A stretch of 64,000 nucleotides of DNA from Pyxidicoccus trucidator (GTDB lineage Bacteria; Myxococcota; Myxococcia; Myxococcales; Myxococcaceae), in NCBI RefSeq assembly GCF_010894435.1, contig NZ_JAAIXZ010000026.1, positions 1 to 64,000 of the forward strand, given 5' to 3'. This document shows, one piece after another, positions 55,971-63,866 of the stretch. Every line of letters begins with the position of its first letter. The first letter of the stretch is position 1. The notes beneath the pieces are model-generated. The model ran no database searches. It was not told the origin of the DNA and saw only the letters and a program-made list of their open reading frames with translations. A program made the position numbers and the translations under genes.

Positions 55971-58007
55971 CTACTTGCGCGTCCACTGGTCCAGCCAGGC
56001 CAGCACCTCGTCGTGCCACTGCACGCTGTTGGCCGGCTTCATCACCCAGTGATTCTCGTCGGGGAAGTAGAGCAGCTTCGAGGGGATGCCCTTGCGCTGC
56101 AGGGCGGTGAAGGTGCCCATCCCCTGCGTCTCCACCACGCGGAAGTCCTGGCCGCCGTGGATGACCATCATCGGCGTCTTCCACTTCGCCACGTGGTTGA
56201 TGGGGCTGTGCTTGCCGTAGCCCTCGGGGTTCTCCCAGGGCGTGCCCTTGTGCTCCCACTCGGGGAACCACAGCTCCTCCGTGTCGAAGTAGCCCATGCG
56301 CTCGTCGAGGATGCCGTCGTGGTTGACGAGGCACTGGAAGCCGTCCGGCCAGTTGCCGGCAATCCAGTTGATCATGTAGCCGCCGTAGCTGGCGCCCAGC
56401 GCGCACCCGCGCGTCTTGTGGATGAAGGGGTAGCGCTCCCGGGCGGCGGCGAGGCCCTTCTGCAAGTCCTCCAGCGGCTTGCCACCCCAGTCATCGCGGA
56501 TGGCGTCGGTGAAGGCCTGCCCGTAGCCGGTGGAGCCGTGGAAGTCGACCATGACGGCCACGTAGCCACGCGCCGCGTACGACTGCGGGTTCCATCGGTA
56601 GTGGAAGTGGTTGCCGAAGGAGCCCTGCGGGCCGCCGTGGATGAGGAAGGCCAGCGGGTACTGGCGCTTCGCATCGAAGTCCACCGGCTTCACCACCCAG
56701 GCGCGCACCGTCTCGTTGTTCCAGCCGGGGAACTCGAACTGCTCGAAGGCGCCGAAGCGGATGCGGGCCAGGTGCTCCTGGTTCACCTGGGTGAGCTGAC
56801 GCGAGCCGGTGCCGTCCGCGTTCATGACATGCAGGTCCGCGGGCGAGTCCAGGTCGTCATGCACGTAGACGACGCGGCCTCCGGCGGCGGGCTGCGGGGA
56901 GTCGTCGGTGCCGTCCTTGGTGAGCTGGCTCACCTTGCCGCTGGCCACGTCCAGCGCGAAGACGGGCTGCAGGCCGAGGTGGTTGGCCACCGCGTAGAGC
57001 GTCTTGCCGTCCGCGCTCCACGCGAGGGCGGAGGCGGAGCGGTCCCACTCCTCGGCGAGCACGCGCTCCTGGCCGCCCGGCCAGGCACGGAGGATGACGC
57101 GGTAGCGGTCCGCCTCGTAGCCGGGACGCGACATGGCGAGGTACGCCAGCGTCTTGCCGTCCGGGCTGAAGACGGGGCTGGTGTCGGTGGCGCGGTTCTT
57201 CTCGGTGAGCTTGCGCGGCTTCGCCTTGCCGTCCACGGGGGCGAGGAAGAGGTCCAGGTCCGTGGACCAGGACTCGGCGCGGCCCACGTCGCGAGCGGTG
57301 AAGACCACGCTCTTGCCGTCCGGGGTGAAGGTGAACTCGTCCGCGCCGCCGAAGGGCTTGGAGGGGCTGTCCGCGTCCATGCCCTTCATCACGTCCACGG
57401 GCGTGCCGCCGGCCACGGGGACGACGAACAGGTGCGAGCGCTTGCCCTCCTTCCACGTGTCCCAGTGCCGGACGAAGAGCTTGTCGTAGCTGCGGCCGGT
57501 GGCCTTCTTCTTGGAGCGCTCGACCTCACGCTGGGGGGAGCACTCCAGGTTGGGGCAGTCGGGGAACACCTCCAGGGCGACGGCCAGCTGGCTGCCGTCG
57601 CGGGACAGGCGGAAGGCGCCCACGTCGAGGGGGAGCTTCGTTACTTGAAGCGGCTCGCCGCCGTCCACGGGCAGGCGCCACACCTGCGAGGAGCCGCCGC
57701 GCGAGGAGAGGAAGAAGAGGCTCTTCCCGTCGGGGGCCCAGATGGGCTCGGAGTCCGCGTCCGGGTGCGAGGTGAGCTGGCGTGGGGCGCCCTCGGCGTC
57801 GAGGTGGGCGAGCCACAAGTCCGTGCGCCCGCGGTTGGCCTCCATGTCGGTGGTGCGCAGGACGTAGGCGAGCTGCTTTCCATCCGGGGAGACGCGCGGG
57901 TTGCTCAGCCGGCGTAGGGTGACCTGGTCCTGGATGGTGTACGGCTGGGGCCGGGCCGGCGCGGGTGCAGCGCCAAGGGCCAGGGCCGCGATGAGCGACA
58001 GCGGCAA
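55971..58007 (-). CDS. Prolyl oligopeptidase-family (S9) peptidase, exported, 678 aa
   Basis: A short signal (MPLSLIAALALGAAPAPA) is followed by a beta-propeller (about 30-420) with WD-like units such as RVSPDGKQLAYVLR, VFSPDGKTLAYLAM and LAWSADGKTLYAV. The C-terminal alpha/beta hydrolase (about 430-678) has the nucleophile elbow GCALGASYGGYM, the Asp in IHGGQDFRV and the His in DENHWV. This is the acylaminoacyl-peptidase/DPP-IV-like layout, and the enzyme cleaves peptides behind Pro or Ala. It is probably periplasmic or secreted. It diverges from the TGA-containing oxidoreductase gene, 211 bases apart. Confidence 0.93.
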   Translation of the reverse strand: MPLSLIAALALGAAPAPARPQPYTIQDQVTLRRLSNPRVSPDGKQLAYVLRTTDMEANRGRTDLWLAHLDAEGAPRQLTSHPDADSEPIWAPDGKSLFFLSSRGGSSQVWRLPVDGGEPLQVTKLPLDVGAFRLSRDGSQLAVALEVFPDCPNLECSPQREVERSKKKATGRSYDKLFVRHWDTWKEGKRSHLFVVPVAGGTPVDVMKGMDADSPSKPFGGADEFTFTPDGKSVVFTARDVGRAESWSTDLDLFLAPVDGKAKPRKLTEKNRATDTSPVFSPDGKTLAYLAMSRPGYEADRYRVILRAWPGGQERVLAEEWDRSASALAWSADGKTLYAVANHLGLQPVFALDVASGKVSQLTKDGTDDSPQPAAGGRVVYVHDDLDSPADLHVMNADGTGSRQLTQVNQEHLARIRFGAFEQFEFPGWNNETVRAWVVKPVDFDAKRQYPLAFLIHGGPQGSFGNHFHYRWNPQSYAARGYVAVMVDFHGSTGYGQAFTDAIRDDWGGKPLEDLQKGLAAARERYPFIHKTRGCALGASYGGYMINWIAGNWPDGFQCLVNHDGILDERMGYFDTEELWFPEWEHKGTPWENPEGYGKHSPINHVAKWKTPMMVIHGGQDFRVVETQGMGTFTALQRKGIPSKLLYFPDENHWVMKPANSVQWHDEVLAWLDQWTRK

Positions 58008-58218: not shown

Positions 58219-58845
58219 ATGGGCATGAGCGACCCTGTCATCGTCCGCGTCTGGTCCGACTTCGTCTGACCCTGGTGCTACGTCGGCCTCGTGGAGGTCG
58301 AGAAGCTGAAGAAGGAATATGACGTCCAGGTGGACTGGCGTCCGTTCTTCCTGCGCCCGGAGACCCCGCCAGAGGGCCTGCCCCTGCCGGCCTACGTGCG
58401 CGAGAAGATGAAGGACCCCAACAACCCGCTGAAGCGCCGCGCGGCCGCGGCCGGGCTGACCATGGTGGAGCGGGAGGTCATTCCCTCCACCCGGCGTGCC
58501 CACCAGGCCGCGGAGTACGCCCGAGAGCACGGGAAGCTGGAGCCCTTCAACGCCGCCATCCTCCGGCGCTACTGGAGCGAGGGCCAGGACCTGTGGCAGT
58601 GGGACACGCTCCGGGGCGCGGCCCAGGAAGCCGGGCTGAATCCGGACGACGTGCAGCGCGCCGTCGAGGAGGGCCGCTACAAGGAGGCCGTGGAGGACTC
58701 CGTGCGTCAGGCCCATGAAATGGGCATCAACGCGGTGCCTACCTTCATCCTCGGCGACAAGTTCGGCCTCCAGGGCGCCCAGGAGTACTCCGTCTTCAAG
58801 CAGGCGATGCAGCGGCTGGGCGTGCAGCCCCGCGCCACGCCCTGA
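58219..58845 (+). CDS. DsbA/FrnE-like thiol oxidoreductase with in-frame TGA at the active site (predicted selenoprotein), 208 aa
   Basis: From ATG 58219 (or 58225) the frame reads MGMSDPVIVRVWSDFV, then TGA (58267-58269), then PWCYVGLVEVEKLKKEY and on to a normal stop at 58843-58845. FrnE-type DsbA proteins carry CPWC at exactly this place, so the TGA replaces the first, nucleophilic Cys (residue 17), giving U-PWC if read as selenocysteine. The rest is a standard thioredoxin fold with helical insert: VDWRPFFLRPETPPEGLPL, GINAVPTFILGDKF (cis-Pro loop) and a C-terminal helix. Length is normal for the family. A possible SECIS hairpin follows the TGA. The alternative, a nonsense mutation of TGC or TGT, would truncate the protein to a useless 16-residue peptide. 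No signal peptide is seen, in line with cytoplasmic FrnE. Confidence 0.78.
58285..58299 (+). promoter_or_regulatory. Candidate bacterial SECIS hairpin downstream of the in-frame TGA
   Basis: GGCCTC (58285-58290) can pair with GAGGTC (58294-58299), six pairs including one G-U, leaving the loop GUG. The loop begins 22 bases after the TGA and starts with G, as expected of bacterial SECIS elements recognised by SelB. A competing fold pairs CTACG (58278-58282) with CGTGG (58290-58294) around UCGGCCU. Confidence 0.5.
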
Positions 58846-58906: not shown

Positions 58907-59242
58907 ATGACCACCGCGTCGGGCGATGCCCGCTTCCAAATCGAAGTCGTCAAGCTGCTGCTCCAGGTCGCCACCAGCGATGACCGCGTCACGCGCGAGG
59001 AAATCGAGCACGTCGTGGACACCGCGCGCGGCATGAGCGTGCCTCTGGAGGAGCTTGCCGCGATTACCCGGTGCCTGAAGAACGGCGAGCCGCTCCCCGC
59101 GCCGAACCTGGGCGTGCTGCGCGCCAATCCGGACGCCGTCATCCAGTCGGCCCGGACGCTGATGGCCAGCGACAGCCACGTGCATGGGGACGAAATCGAG
59201 ATGCTGCGGCAGCTCCGCGAGCTGCTCGGCGTCACGCGCTGA
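58907..59242 (+). CDS. TerB-like helical protein, 111 aa
   Basis: The layout IEVVKLLLQVATSDDRVTREEIEHV, then LMASDSHVHGDEIEMLRQLRELL, gives two helix-Asp-rich-loop-helix repeats as in TerB/tellurite-resistance-like domains, which bind divalent metals. The product is small, soluble and cytoplasmic. The start ATG 58907 gives MTTASGD. Function is unknown: TerB-like domains occur in stress and defence proteins, but no ter operon is nearby. Confidence 0.75.
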   Translation: MTTASGDARFQIEVVKLLLQVATSDDRVTREEIEHVVDTARGMSVPLEELAAITRCLKNGEPLPAPNLGVLRANPDAVIQSARTLMASDSHVHGDEIEMLRQLRELLGVTR

Positions 59243-59296: not shown

Positions 59297-60565
59297 TCAC
59301 AGTCCCTTGAGCAGCACCAGCATCCGGCCCAGCGTCTCCGCGCCGCCCTTCCCCGCCAGGCCCTGCGCGAGCGAGTGCAGCTCCGGCGCCTGCTCCACGT
59401 GCTTCGCGATGACCTGGAAGCACTCCACCGCGGCGGCGTCGAGCCGGGCCCGCGCCTCCCCGGTGTCCCCTGCCCCGCCCTCGCACAGCGCCACCACCGC
59501 CGGGTGCCCGAAGAGCGTCCACCGCAGCACCGCCGCGCGCAGCGTCAGCCGGAACACGTAGTCCAGCAGCGTGGGCGCATCGGTGAACGGGTGGCGCAGC
59601 CAGTGGTTCACCGCGTGGTGACGGAAGTACTGCTCCACCCGCTCGGCCAGCGCCGGGTGCAGCCGCTCGCGCCGCTCCGCATGGATTCGCCACGCCGCGT
59701 CCGGTACCTCCGCGCCGCCGTAGGACGTGAGGACCGTACGCACCAGCGTGCTGAACCGCTCGCTCCGGACGGAGCCCAGGCGGGCCCTGAGCACGGTGGC
59801 GCAGATGCCGGCCCACGGCCCTCCGGGCAGCGACAGTGAAGTGAAGCCCTCGTGCAGCTCCGCCAGCGTCTCCGGCAGGGTGAAGGAGCGCAGCACGTCG
59901 GAGAGCAGGGCCGCGGACTCCCCGTCGAACGCCTCTGTCCCGCGGAAGTAGAACCCGTCCACCCGGAGCGCGAGCTGCCCGAGCGCGAACAGCCGCGAAG
60001 CAAACGGAAGCTCCCGCCGCTGGAGCAGCGCCACCGCCGTCGCGCGCACGGCCTCCGCGTGCCGCGTCCACGCATCCTCCGCGTCGCCTCCGAGCCGCCG
60101 CGCGACTTCCGGGCGCACGGCCACGTCCTCGGAGACGGGCACGGGCTCCACGCCGTCCTCCGCGAGCAGGCACAGCCGAGCCACCTCCGGGCACGCGAGC
60201 GAGCCGACCACTTCCAGCCGCTCACCCCACCGCGTGGCCACACGTGGGAAGGTGGCGCAGGCATCCGGCAGGACGGCCTCTCCGTGCGCGCGGTGGAGCG
60301 AGCACAGCTTGCGCTCATCGAGGAACGTGCAGTGCCCGTCCTCGCGCTTCGCGATGACCCCAGCCTCCGCGCCGGGGCCGCTGCCTTCATCCGGCCGGAT
60401 GAGCGCCTCCACCCGCGCCGCGTCCGGGCCACCCGCCACCGTCTCGCGCAGCCGCTTCCAGCGCGCCTCGCTGACGGTGACCACGAGCCCCGCGCAGCAG
60501 GTGTCCTCGCAGGAATCCGCGAGGCACCTGAAGCGCGTCATGTAGCGGGGCGCAGAGGCCGTCAT
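59297..60565 (-). CDS. FliB-family (flagellin lysine-N-methylase-like) Cys-rich protein, 422 aa
   Basis: The N-terminal Cys clusters (RCLADSCEDTCCAGLVV, CTFLDERKLCSLHRAHGEA, LPDACATFPR, GSLACPEVARLC) match FliB/YkgJ-type proteins, whose Cys residues probably hold an iron-sulfur cluster. The remainder is helical. FliB methylates flagellin lysines in enterobacteria, but myxobacteria have no flagella, so the substrate must differ. It begins ten bases after the stop of the PilZ-Hsp70 gene and is probably in its transcript. The length is near that of FliB. Confidence 0.82.
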   Translation of the reverse strand: MTASAPRYMTRFRCLADSCEDTCCAGLVVTVSEARWKRLRETVAGGPDAARVEALIRPDEGSGPGAEAGVIAKREDGHCTFLDERKLCSLHRAHGEAVLPDACATFPRVATRWGERLEVVGSLACPEVARLCLLAEDGVEPVPVSEDVAVRPEVARRLGGDAEDAWTRHAEAVRATAVALLQRRELPFASRLFALGQLALRVDGFYFRGTEAFDGESAALLSDVLRSFTLPETLAELHEGFTSLSLPGGPWAGICATVLRARLGSVRSERFSTLVRTVLTSYGGAEVPDAAWRIHAERRERLHPALAERVEQYFRHHAVNHWLRHPFTDAPTLLDYVFRLTLRAAVLRWTLFGHPAVVALCEGGAGDTGEARARLDAAAVECFQVIAKHVEQAPELHSLAQGLAGKGGAETLGRMLVLLKGL

Positions 60566-60575
60566 GGCGCGCGGG

Positions 60576-63500
60576 CTACTTGCGGCCCAGCGCCTTCTTG
60601 ACGAAGCCCCAGAAGCCGCCGGCGCGCTCCTTGAGGTCGGCGCCGCGCCGGTCCTCCGCCGCCTTGACCGACTCCTTGCTCACCTGGAGCTGCTTCTGCA
60701 GCTCCTCGGGCGAGTAGCGCGTGGCCAGCGTGGCCTTCACTTCCTTGCGCGTGGAGTACTCGCGCGCCTCCACGTGCAGCACGCACTCGGAGTCGAGCTT
60801 GATGGTGACGGCGACGCGGACGGAGCCCTTGGGTCCCCGGGGCAGGCCCTCGATTCGCACCGTGCCCAGGTACTCGTTGGCGGAGATGTGGTTGTCCTCG
60901 CCCTGGAAGATGGACAGCTCGAGGAACTCCTCGTTGTCCTTCGTCGTGTTGATGGCGAAGGAGCGCTGGGCAGGCAGCGGGCTGTTGCGCTCGATGACGC
61001 GCTTGAAGGCGCCGCCGGGCATGGCCACGCCCACCGTCATCGGCAGCACGTCGATGAGCACCACGCTGCTCACCTTGTCCACCGAGCCCGAGTACAGCGC
61101 CGCGCCCAGGGCCACCGCCTCGTCCGCGTTGACGCTGGCCTGCGGCCCCTTGCCGAACAGCTCCTTCAGCTTGTCGCGCACCATGGGCATGCGGCTCATG
61201 CCGCCCACGAGGATGATGTCGTCCACCTCGGAGGCCTTGAGCTTCGCGTCCAGCAGCACGTCGCGCACCACGTCCACGGTGCGGCTGAGCAGCGGGTCGC
61301 AGATCTTCTCCAGCTCCGGCCGCGTGAAGACGACGCGCAGGTCCCGGGGCCGCCCCGCCGCGTCCATCATCAGCATGGGGATGTGGACCTCGAAGCTGGC
61401 GCGCTCGGAGAGCGCCATCTTCGCGCGCTCGGCCGCGTCGCTCACGCGCGACAGGGCGATGCCGTCGCCGGTGAAGGCGATGCCCTCCTTCTCCTGGAAG
61501 CGCGCGAGGAGGAAGTCGACGATGAGGTTGTCGAAGTCGATACCGCCCAGGAAGATGTCGCCGCCGGTGCCGAGCACCTCGAAGACGTTCTTCTCGATTT
61601 TGAGGATGGTGGCGTCGAAGGTACCGCCGCCCAAATCGTAGACGAGGACCTTCTTGTTCAGCTCGCGGTTGAGGCCGTAGGCGAGCGCCGCGGAGGTGGG
61701 CTCGTTGAGGATGCGCTCCACCTTGAGTCCCGCGAGGATGCCGGACTTGCGGACGGCCTCACGCTGCGGCTCGGAGTAGTACGCGGGCACCGTCACCACC
61801 GCGCGCTCCACCTTCTGGTTGAGGTGGGCCTCCGCCATCTCCTTGCACTCGCGGAGGATGATGGCCTGCACCTCCTCGAGCGACAGGACGTTTTCGCCGA
61901 GCAACACGGCCGCGCGGCCCGCGGCATCGGGGACGATTTCGTAGTGGAAGCGCTCGCGGACCTGGTTCACCACGGCGCTGTCGTAGGGACGGCCCACCAG
62001 TCGCTTCGCGCCGTAGATGGTCTGCTGCGGGCGCAGCACGAGCTGGTTCTTCGCCCGGTGGCTGACGAGCAGCTTGTTCTGCGCGTTGAGCGAGATGACG
62101 GAGGGGATGGTGTTGTAGCCCTCGCGCGAGCGCAGCACGACGGGCCGTCCGTTGCTGAGCAGCGCCACGCACGAGTTGGTGGTGCCCAGGTCGATGCCGA
62201 TGACCGGCCCCGTGCCGGCGACCTGCCCCGGCGGCGACAGGAAGACGAGTCGGGGCAGGCCGCGCTCGTCCAGCGGGGGCGCGACGGGCGCCTGCTTCGC
62301 CGCGGCCGGGCTGAGCAGCGTGGGCATGCCCACGGGCTCGGGCGCGCGAGGCGCCTCACGGCGGACGTTGGGCAGGGACGGCGCGGCCGGAGGCGCGGGA
62401 GGCGGCGCGACAGGCGCGGGCCGGGGCGCCTGGGCCGCCGCCGGAGGAGGCGGAGGCGGCACCGGAGCGGCCATGGGCCTGGGCGGAGGAGGCGGCGCCT
62501 TGGCGGCGGGCGCGGGCGTCGGGCTCCCGAACTCGAACGCGTCGACATCCTCCGACATGTCCAGGTCGAACTCGATGCTGCCACCCGAAGCGCGGGCCGC
62601 GGGGGGCGCCGGAGGTGGCGTCACCGGCGCAGCGGGCGCTGCGCGAGGCGGAGGGGGGGCCTCGAGGGGCGCCTCCTCCATGGCGTCGGACAGGTCCAGG
62701 TCGAACTCGAAGCTACCGCCCGAGCGGGCCGCGGCGGGCGCCGGAGGCGGAGCCACGGGAGCCGGTGCAGCGCGAGGAGGCGGAGGCGGGGCGGCGCGAG
62801 GCGGCGGCGCCACGGGTGCCTCTTCCACGGCGTCGCCCAGGTCCAGCTCGAACTCCAGGGCTCCACCCGAGGTGGGGGGAGGCGGCGGAGGCGGAGCGGC
62901 GCGGGGCGGCGGGGCCGCAGCGCGGGGCGGCGGCGGCGCCTCTTCCACGGCATCGCCGAAGTCCAGCTCGAACTCCAGGGGCGCGCCCGAGGGCGGAGGG
63001 CCCGAGGAGGACGGCTCGAGCTCCACCGTGAAGCCGACCTCGATGGGCGGCTCGTCGAGCGGCTCGCCCAGGGCCACGGGCGTGCCGGTGACAGGGGCCT
63101 CCATCTCGAACTCGAACCCGGGCAGCGGCTCGTCCCCGTCCGGGGGCGAGGGTGGAGGCGGGGTGCTCGCGATGAGCTCGTCGAGCGGGATGTCCACGTC
63201 GTCCTCCGCGGGCGGAGGCGGCGCGAAGGCCATGGCGGCCGGGAAGGGCGCGGGCGTCCGGGGCTCGGCGACGGGAGGCGGGAAGTTGAACGGCTCATCC
63301 GCGACAGGCGCCTCGGGCCCCTCCGAGGACTCCAGGTCATCGAAGAGCGAGTCGAGCGCCATGCCCCCCGCCGCGCGCGGAGCAGATGCCGGAGCCACCG
63401 GGGGCGCGGGGGCAGGCCGCACCTGCGCGGGAGCAACCCTGGGCGCCACGGCGGGGGCGACGGCGGGAGCCACGGAAGGGGCCACCAAGGGAGCCACGGA

Positions 63501-63866
63501 AGGCAGCGACGGAGCGACGGAAGCGACGGCGTCCGGCTTGCGTTGGAGCATCATGTCGACGAGCGCGCGGCTCGCCGTGTCGAGCTCCTCGAACTGGAGT
63601 CCCATGCCGGGAGGCCCGGACGGGTCTCCGACTTCGCGGACCCAGCGCACCAGGGCGGCGCCGCGCAGCACGCGCACGCCCCCGGCGATCTGCACCTCGA
63701 ACTTGACGGGTGTCCCCACGGGCTGTGGGGTGCGCGAGCGGATGAACATCCCGCCCGGGCTCAGGTTTGTGGCGAACTCTTCAGCGAAGCTCCCCACGGT
63801 TTCATGCTTGAGCTTCACCAGCAGACCCACTGCTTTGCGGTCCGTGGTGCGCCTGCCTTGATCCAT
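60576..63866 (-). CDS. PilZ-like domain fused through a repetitive linker to an Hsp70 (DnaK-like) chaperone, 1096 aa
   Basis: Residues 1-~110 form a PilZ-type domain of the myxobacterial TIGR02266 kind (RKAVGLLVKLKHE, NLSPGGMFIRS, GMGLQFEEL). The DnaK-like part starts near residue 550: GIDLGTTNSCVALL (phosphate loop 1), VYDLGGGTFDATIL, ILVGGMSRMP and AVALGAALYSG, with a shortened substrate-binding half. The ~430-residue Pro/Ala linker holds four copies of an acidic motif (LEFELDxGDAVEEAP). The usual DnaK lid is reduced. PilZ domains may bind cyclic di-GMP, and the RxxxR pattern is only partly visible here, so nucleotide binding is uncertain. The FliB-like gene follows after ten bases. Confidence 0.92.
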   Translation of the reverse strand: MDQGRRTTDRKAVGLLVKLKHETVGSFAEEFATNLSPGGMFIRSRTPQPVGTPVKFEVQIAGGVRVLRGAALVRWVREVGDPSGPPGMGLQFEELDTASRALVDMMLQRKPDAVASVAPSLPSVAPLVAPSVAPAVAPAVAPRVAPAQVRPAPAPPVAPASAPRAAGGMALDSLFDDLESSEGPEAPVADEPFNFPPPVAEPRTPAPFPAAMAFAPPPPAEDDVDIPLDELIASTPPPPSPPDGDEPLPGFEFEMEAPVTGTPVALGEPLDEPPIEVGFTVELEPSSSGPPPSGAPLEFELDFGDAVEEAPPPPRAAAPPPRAAPPPPPPPTSGGALEFELDLGDAVEEAPVAPPPRAAPPPPPRAAPAPVAPPPAPAAARSGGSFEFDLDLSDAMEEAPLEAPPPPRAAPAAPVTPPPAPPAARASGGSIEFDLDMSEDVDAFEFGSPTPAPAAKAPPPPPRPMAAPVPPPPPPAAAQAPRPAPVAPPPAPPAAPSLPNVRREAPRAPEPVGMPTLLSPAAAKQAPVAPPLDERGLPRLVFLSPPGQVAGTGPVIGIDLGTTNSCVALLSNGRPVVLRSREGYNTIPSVISLNAQNKLLVSHRAKNQLVLRPQQTIYGAKRLVGRPYDSAVVNQVRERFHYEIVPDAAGRAAVLLGENVLSLEEVQAIILRECKEMAEAHLNQKVERAVVTVPAYYSEPQREAVRKSGILAGLKVERILNEPTSAALAYGLNRELNKKVLVYDLGGGTFDATILKIEKNVFEVLGTGGDIFLGGIDFDNLIVDFLLARFQEKEGIAFTGDGIALSRVSDAAERAKMALSERASFEVHIPMLMMDAAGRPRDLRVVFTRPELEKICDPLLSRTVDVVRDVLLDAKLKASEVDDIILVGGMSRMPMVRDKLKELFGKGPQASVNADEAVALGAALYSGSVDKVSSVVLIDVLPMTVGVAMPGGAFKRVIERNSPLPAQRSFAINTTKDNEEFLELSIFQGEDNHISANEYLGTVRIEGLPRGPKGSVRVAVTIKLDSECVLHVEAREYSTRKEVKATLATRYSPEELQKQLQVSKESVKAAEDRRGADLKERAGGFWGFVKKALGRK

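Follow-up and report, generated by a model that had tools for sequence, protein, structure and literature searches.

A probable FrnE/DsbA-type selenoprotein of Pyxidicoccus trucidator and its cysteine-containing counterparts at the same locus in myxobacteria

Selenoproteins of the DsbA-like class (COG2761, with a UxxC motif) were reported from Sargasso Sea data in 2005 (PMC1088965) and from Anaeromyxobacter dehalogenans and other organisms in 2006 (PMC1794560). A table of 2016 gives 41 and 45 for DsbA-like selenoproteins, presumably counts of organisms and genes (PMC5029168), and UxxC selenoproteins of the Pfam family PF01323 appear in reviews of 2022 and 2026 (PMC9312934, PMC13188914). According to the relevant passages of another review, FrnE proteins are predicted cytoplasmic thiol oxidoreductases; cadmium and diamide sensitivity is described for the frnE mutant of Deinococcus radiodurans, and the C-terminal CXXXXC of the D. 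radiodurans protein (drFrnE) is proposed to help in the regeneration of the enzyme and reported to be important for it (PMC8945050).

Judged by titles and the beginnings of abstracts, searches of the open literature on selenoproteins of Myxococcus, myxobacteria, Myxococcota or Corallococcus, or on FrnE, yielded no paper treating the gene described here. The main text of a prediction paper of 2025 (PMC12013277) contains none of the terms Myxococc-, DsbA, Corallococcus, Archangium or FrnE.

The reading frame across an internal TGA

We analysed a stretch of 64,000 nucleotides from Pyxidicoccus trucidator, hereafter the window. The gene in question, and the readings proposed for it, are made up of the following features.

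58225..58845, + strand: FrnE/DsbA-type gene read as a selenoprotein gene; 206 residues with Sec at position 15 (UPWC); PF01323 (DSBA) at 129.1 bits against a cut-off of 25.6
58267..58269, + strand: in-frame TGA read as Sec, at the first Cys position of the CPWC active site in the alignment of 106 homologues
58276..58278, + strand: resolving Cys, residue 18 of UPWC; an invariant column and the sole Cys codon of the protein
58738..58740, + strand: Pro 172 of AVPTF; an invariant column
58843-58845, + strand: stop codon TGA of the gene, the frame being open up to here past the internal TGA
58219..58221, + strand: upstream in-frame ATG put forward by the initial annotation; none seen at that place in close relatives
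58291..58845, + strand: conventional ORF with a GTG start inside the putative SECIS loop; 184 residues, active site missing

From 58225 the + strand reads ATG AGC GAC CCT, and around the site TTC GTC TGA CCC TGG TGC TAC GTC GGC CTC GTG GAG GTC GAG. The internal TGA is preceded by VWSDFV and followed by PWCYVG. The initial annotation had stated that the frame runs through this TGA to a normal stop codon, and the sequence bears this out; its observation is thus confirmed, and its interpretation of the gene as a probable selenoprotein is supported. Only its choice of start codon did not hold. It had placed the start at ATG 58219. We saw no equivalent of this ATG in the close relatives; these mostly begin at the equivalent of ATG 58225 (MSDP...), which appears to be the likelier start codon. 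Rfam gave no match above the family threshold around the gene (one chance match, E 0.4), and ARAGORN found no tRNA in the whole window.

An open frame and a downstream hairpin are not sufficient by themselves, and we rejected the two as proof, because the window, being GC-rich, has many of both. Among its 1245 TGA triplets, 93 are followed by 190 or more open codons and preceded by 14 or more. The abundance of such frames lends some support to the reading in which the TGA is a true stop and the working gene either starts at GTG 58291 or is a decaying pseudogene. The GTG ORF exists, as the initial annotation had anticipated when it noted that a conventional reading would start there and lose the active site; we do not regard it as the true product. 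Several points tell against a true stop. Apart from the TGA, the gene in the window has no frame damage. In the TGA forms, the residues before the TGA are kept as WSD[FY]V in the main group of homologues and as [LM]YSDFV-like segments in a second group, and those between the TGA and the GTG are kept as PWCY[VI]GL in close relatives. In 23 Sec forms, pS/pN was 0.235/0.135 before the TGA, 0.199/0.028 over codons 1-8 after it, and 0.33/0.088 far after it; the conservation ahead of the TGA (pN 0.135) is moderate. Finally, the TGA alternates solely with Cys codons, never with TAA, TAG or others, as described below. We therefore regard a true stop as highly improbable.

The codon at the active site and the selenocysteine machinery

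The codon was read across two surveys. The first covered 96 genomes of the GTDB family, 81 of which have a homologue (94 matches); 82 of these matches were read at the site, the other 12, all without stops, being two pieces from one genome and ten distant matches (31-35% identity). The second covered 147 genomes of the class and added 25 matches from other families of the same order, of which 24 align at the site; the remaining one (L197) was left out since its contig ends before the site. We observed 43 TGA, 24 TGC and 15 TGT among the 82 family loci, and 21 TGA, 2 TGC and 1 TGT among the 24 loci of the other families. Taken together, the 106 aligned myxobacterial homologues have 64 TGA (in 63 genomes), 42 Cys codons (TGC/TGT) and no other codon at this position. 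It is this distribution at one position that lifts the signal above chance. It also agrees with the earlier proposal that the TGA occupies the place of the first active-site Cys.

The initial annotation had further named decay of the downstream frame in relatives as evidence that would count against a selenoprotein. We did not find such decay; the TGA forms keep the frame downstream. The one relative with a broken frame, a metagenome assembly in which the gene lies in the two pieces mentioned above (G050, named locus L024), is a Cys form. Stop flags from the search were not taken at face value, and were rejected as such, since in two Cys forms (L117, L122) the flagged TGA is the end of the gene and does not lie at the site. 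Among 14 PF01323 matches in the P. trucidator genome, only the gene in the window has a stop inside.

A sequencing or assembly error in place of TGC or TGT would need a single base. However, besides the gene in the window the same TGA occurs in another 63 homologues, spread over 62 other genomes, accompanied by the SECIS-specific conservation described in the next section. As independent genomes share the TGA, we consider an error very unlikely, to the point of being negligible.

The P. trucidator assembly (12.67 Mb, 136 contigs) was searched for selB, selD and tRNA-Sec, and selA was searched both there and across the family. The absence of the sel genes and of tRNA-Sec would have spoken against Sec insertion; all were found, selA at 475.6 bits, selB at 289 bits, selD at 374.8 bits with one in-frame TGA, and tRNA-Sec(UCA) at 73.7 bits, above the Rfam cut-off and called tRNA-SeC(tca) by ARAGORN. 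Two of the genes found in the genome have an in-frame TGA of their own.

G000:C1:52118-53047 (locus L098), - strand: selD with an in-frame TGA (SHCAG-U-AAKL), read as MADEQPVKPKRLTELSHCAG-U-AAKL
G000:C8:408744-409283 (L219:445-984): peroxiredoxin-like gene with an in-frame TGA in FTGG-U-TREL, a further selenoprotein candidate

The predicted product of selD is a Sec-containing selenophosphate synthetase. Past the TGA of the peroxiredoxin-like gene, a hairpin structure is predicted (-25.8 kcal/mol over 57 nt). Since these two and the gene in the window each have an in-frame TGA, the genome holds at least three selenoprotein candidates. No Sec-containing formate dehydrogenase that would use the machinery was seen, there being no stop in any of the three PF00384 matches of the genome.

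That UGA is read here as some other residue, such as Trp, through a changed code or plain read-through, has nothing to recommend it beyond the in-frame TGA itself. The gene and most of its relatives terminate with TGA, the alternative in relatives is always Cys, and tRNA-Sec, selA and selB are present. Such a reading seems to us improbable in the extreme, and the gene in the window is almost certainly a true selenoprotein gene, as judged from its sequence and those of its homologues.

Presence of the machinery does not tell the two forms apart, and we rejected it as a separator. A selA gene was found in 88 of the 96 family genomes, in all 43 family genomes with a TGA form and in all 23 genomes with named loci, Cys forms included; of the 38 family genomes that have a homologue but no TGA form, 35 have it as well (the 38 include genomes whose matches were left unread). 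The three homologue-bearing genomes without a selA match, G032 and G036 (about 80% completeness) and G059 (complete), all have Cys forms.

The hairpin downstream of the TGA

The candidate SECIS element lies directly downstream of the site.

58283..58301, + strand: putative bacterial SECIS stem-loop UCGGCCUC-GUG-GAGGUCGA; 8 bp, loop 21 nt after the UGA

The initial annotation had described a hairpin GGCCUC-GUG-GAGGUC, 15 bases past the TGA and with G first in its loop. This is right for the 6-bp core (GGCCTC at 58285-58290, loop GTG at 58291-58293, GAGGTC at 58294-58299), which two more pairs extend to UCGGCCUC/GAGGUCGA. The predicted energy of the core is -11.5 kcal/mol; against shuffled sequences the fold has z = -1.8, and 5 of 200 shuffles were as low. 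A published model of bacterial SECIS elements, as given in the passage of the 2026 review on them, sets a loop of 3-9 nt, a stem of 4-16 bp, G in the first two loop positions, a place 16-37 nt after the UGA and an MFE of -7.5 or below (PMC13188914). The hairpin in the window falls within these limits with its GUG loop, 8 bp and 21 nt. So do 62 of the 64 Sec forms and 5 of the 42 Cys forms under this loose model (PMC13188914), and likewise 253 of the window's 1241 TGA triplets. A stricter form retained 60 of the 64 Sec loci vs 1 of the 42 Cys loci. When the loop had to be G[G/U] and the stem 6 bp or longer, 36 of the 1241 TGAs of the window remained, and with 8 bp 13 of 1241; by its fold the hairpin belongs to this rarest kind. 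On its own, it is weak evidence.

The comparison among homologues is more telling. The 42 UPWC-type Sec forms have 7 distinct 19-mers, in every one of which the loop begins with G followed by G or U. Over these 7 stems, 94.6% of the cells are paired and four pairs show compensatory change; the covariation score was reached by none of 500 shuffles, and the number of such pairs by 10 of 500. With the divergent L200 type set aside, 6 stems and two compensatory pairs remained, the score being reached by 10 and the number by 61 of 500 shuffles; covariation then appears to give the stem moderate support. Three of the 7 stems lack the pair adjoining the loop. Main-clade Cys forms are 73.4% paired.

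Synonymous differences at the stem codons +5, +6, +7, +9 and +10 were zero in 36 main-clade Sec forms vs 0.25-0.57 in 28 Cys forms. Of 60 seven-codon windows of the gene, the four with the least synonymous difference in the Sec forms cover the hairpin (starts +3 to +6). Codons -3, -2, +4 and +20, outside the stem, likewise show no synonymous change in the Sec forms, and in the Cys forms there are windows equally low elsewhere in the gene.

Two other hairpin types were observed. The divergent UPWC homologues L200, L204 and L207, three of the 42 above, have a third hairpin type, UCAGUAC-CGUGC-GUAUUGA, after the TGA, and their SECIS may be of its own origin. The second DsbA/FrnE-like group (UPFC/UPYC, about 30-41% identity) has its own hairpin, GCAGCCU-GGUC-AGGCUGC, with the loop 32 nt after the UGA. 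Its 18-mer is identical in 20 of the 22 Sec loci of this group (L173-L177, L181, L182, L198, L199, L201-L203, L205, L206, L208-L215), and hairpin pairs are broken in all five of its Cys loci (L178-L180, L183, L216).

The locus, the protein and their known relatives

The neighbours of the gene were compared among the 23 named loci.

55971..58007, - strand: S9 peptidase gene (PF00326), divergent neighbour; conserved flank
59297..60565, - strand: CxxCxxCC-domain gene (PF03692), downstream neighbour; conserved flank
60576..63866, - strand: PilZ-Hsp70 (DnaK-like) gene; conserved flank

These flanks are kept in 20 of the 23 named loci, around Sec and Cys forms alike, the exceptions (L005, L006, L023) being all Sec. 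As the same flanks surround both forms, the exchange of Sec and Cys took place in the same gene, in place. Three side observations concern these loci. A small TerB-like protein at 58907-59242 adjoins the selenoprotein gene and occurs among the 23 named loci only in L002-L004, all Sec. In L003 and L016 the best match to the CxxCxxCC-domain neighbour is partial, and the gene may be split or frame-shifted there. The locus L017 (BNCN01000012.1), titled Comamonas sp. KCTC 72670, is Myxococcus-like with myxobacterial synteny, and its title is probably wrong.

Parsimony on a quick protein tree of the 106 rows, with the site masked and costs equal, required 9 changes. With a Cys root these were 2 gains and 7 losses, and with a Sec root all 9 were losses. 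Making losses costlier turned the balance round, to 11 gains and 2 losses at double cost and 18 gains at fivefold cost. The number and direction of the changes are rough, because no single branch sets the outgroup apart and the tree has many weak branches. From the tree, Sec is probably ancestral in the FrnE-type subfamily, several lineages having changed to Cys at the same locus with later decay of the SECIS, a direction that depends on the assumed costs. Members of the Corallococcus terminator/praedator group (L154-L156, the names being those of L021 and L022) combine a Cys codon with an intact 8-bp stem whose loop is GCC, not G[G/U]; this hairpin is best read as a putative fossil SECIS left by a recent Sec-to-Cys change. 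We thus think it fairly probable that the myxobacterial FrnE-type selenoprotein subfamily was ancestrally Sec and underwent repeated Sec-to-Cys change in place while selA, and by inference the whole machinery, was kept. The SECIS would then decay and could be caught as a fossil, and whether a lineage retains Sec would depend on this enzyme and not on whether the machinery was lost, in bacteria that are usually considered aerobic.

The protein itself has as its nearest named relative that of Pyxidicoccus caerfyrddinensis (94% identity). AlphaFold2, run with 35 rows, gave a model with pLDDT 94.6 and pTM 0.90. In this predicted fold the N-terminus MSDPVIVRVWSDFV passes straight into strand 5-11, and U15-P-W-C18 forms a UxxC at the thioredoxin-fold active site, with U15 directly ahead of helix 16-31. 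U15 and C18 are the only Sec and Cys residues of the protein; Pro 172 is presumably the cis-Pro that faces the active site in the thioredoxin fold. Among solved structures the fold comparison ranks Deinococcus FrnE (5cp1 and others; TMq 0.81-0.84) first and SCO1869 next, and phmmer gives E 1.3e-28 to FrnE. Sequence and fold thus agree with the earlier assignment to the FrnE type, and by both measures the nearest solved structures place the protein with the FrnE subfamily (cd03024). No NCBIfam model reaches its cut-off for the protein; membership in NF041057 was rejected at 40.6 of the 190 bits required.

Our explanation as a whole, in which we place high confidence, is that the gene would encode a probably cytoplasmic FrnE/DsbA-type thiol/disulfide oxidoreductase with the Sec nucleophile in U15-P-W-C18, decoded via SelB and the hairpin, likely acting in thiol repair and probably ancestrally Sec. 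SelB with Sec-tRNA(UCA) would bind the stem-loop at 58283-58301 past the UGA at 58267, so that Sec is inserted and the chain is not ended. The selenol of U15 would attack a substrate disulfide or oxidised thiol, C18 would resolve the intermediate via a Se-S bond, and an outside reductant would restore the enzyme; regeneration must come from outside because the protein has no further Cys and hence no C-terminal CXXXXC pair. By analogy with FrnE, the most likely role would be cytoplasmic thiol repair under oxidative stress.

A selenoprotein of this fold might instead serve as a specific isomerase, a glutathione-transferase-kappa-like enzyme or a peroxide/metal detoxifying enzyme, with no part in general disulfide reduction. 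DsbA-fold enzymes are diverse, and GST-kappa and HCCA isomerase are among the lower-ranked fold matches; to our knowledge, neither of these has a CxxC. The best matches in both sequence and fold are FrnE, and a UxxC with a resolving Cys suits thiol/disulfide exchange, so we regard such another task as possible but doubtful and retain the thiol/disulfide oxidoreductase as the preferred function.

The Sec/Cys orthologue set at this one locus is unusually clean. With nearly all of the species having selA, it offers a natural experiment and a clean test of the benefit of Sec to the enzyme. A gene finder that halts at every TGA would remove the active site of such proteins. Myxococcaceae are mainly aerobic. 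According to the 2026 review, in its passage on this point, aerobic bacteria rarely retain selenoproteins (PMC13188914). Of the genomes of this family, 88 of 96 have selA.

The initial annotation had presented a UPWC protein of the FrnE type as an under-annotated case. The type stands; the protein is less new than first suggested, because it falls in the long-known DsbA-like UxxC class of PF01323 and COG2761 (we take the latter to be the FrnE family), one member of which is from Anaeromyxobacter. In the main-text passages on DsbA-like selenoproteins we found no family-wide listing for myxobacteria (PMC1088965, PMC1794560). What appears to be new in detail is the spread in the family, the repeated in-place Sec/Cys change and the fossil SECIS elements.

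Among single described proteins, D. radiodurans FrnE (DR_0659; PDB 5cp1, 5cnw and others) is the best match in sequence and the top one in fold, with CPWC there and UPWC here; it has a C-terminal CXXXXC, whereas the protein of the window has no Sec or Cys besides U15 and C18. SCO1869 (PDB 3gl5), from Streptomyces coelicolor and by its title a putative DsbA oxidoreductase, is similar in fold (TMq 0.85) but more distant in sequence (E 5.5e-17). The Rcas_1661 family of thioredoxin-like (seleno)lipoproteins (NF041057) shows partial C-terminal similarity, the protein of the window lying below its cut-off. With the DsbA-like UxxC selenoprotein family, as it is described in the texts of the two early reports (PMC1088965, PMC1794560), the gene shares PF01323, Sec as the first residue of UxxC, a bacterial SECIS downstream and a host of the delta group; it differs in that here the protein is traced through one myxobacterial family, with Sec and Cys alternating at one syntenic locus.
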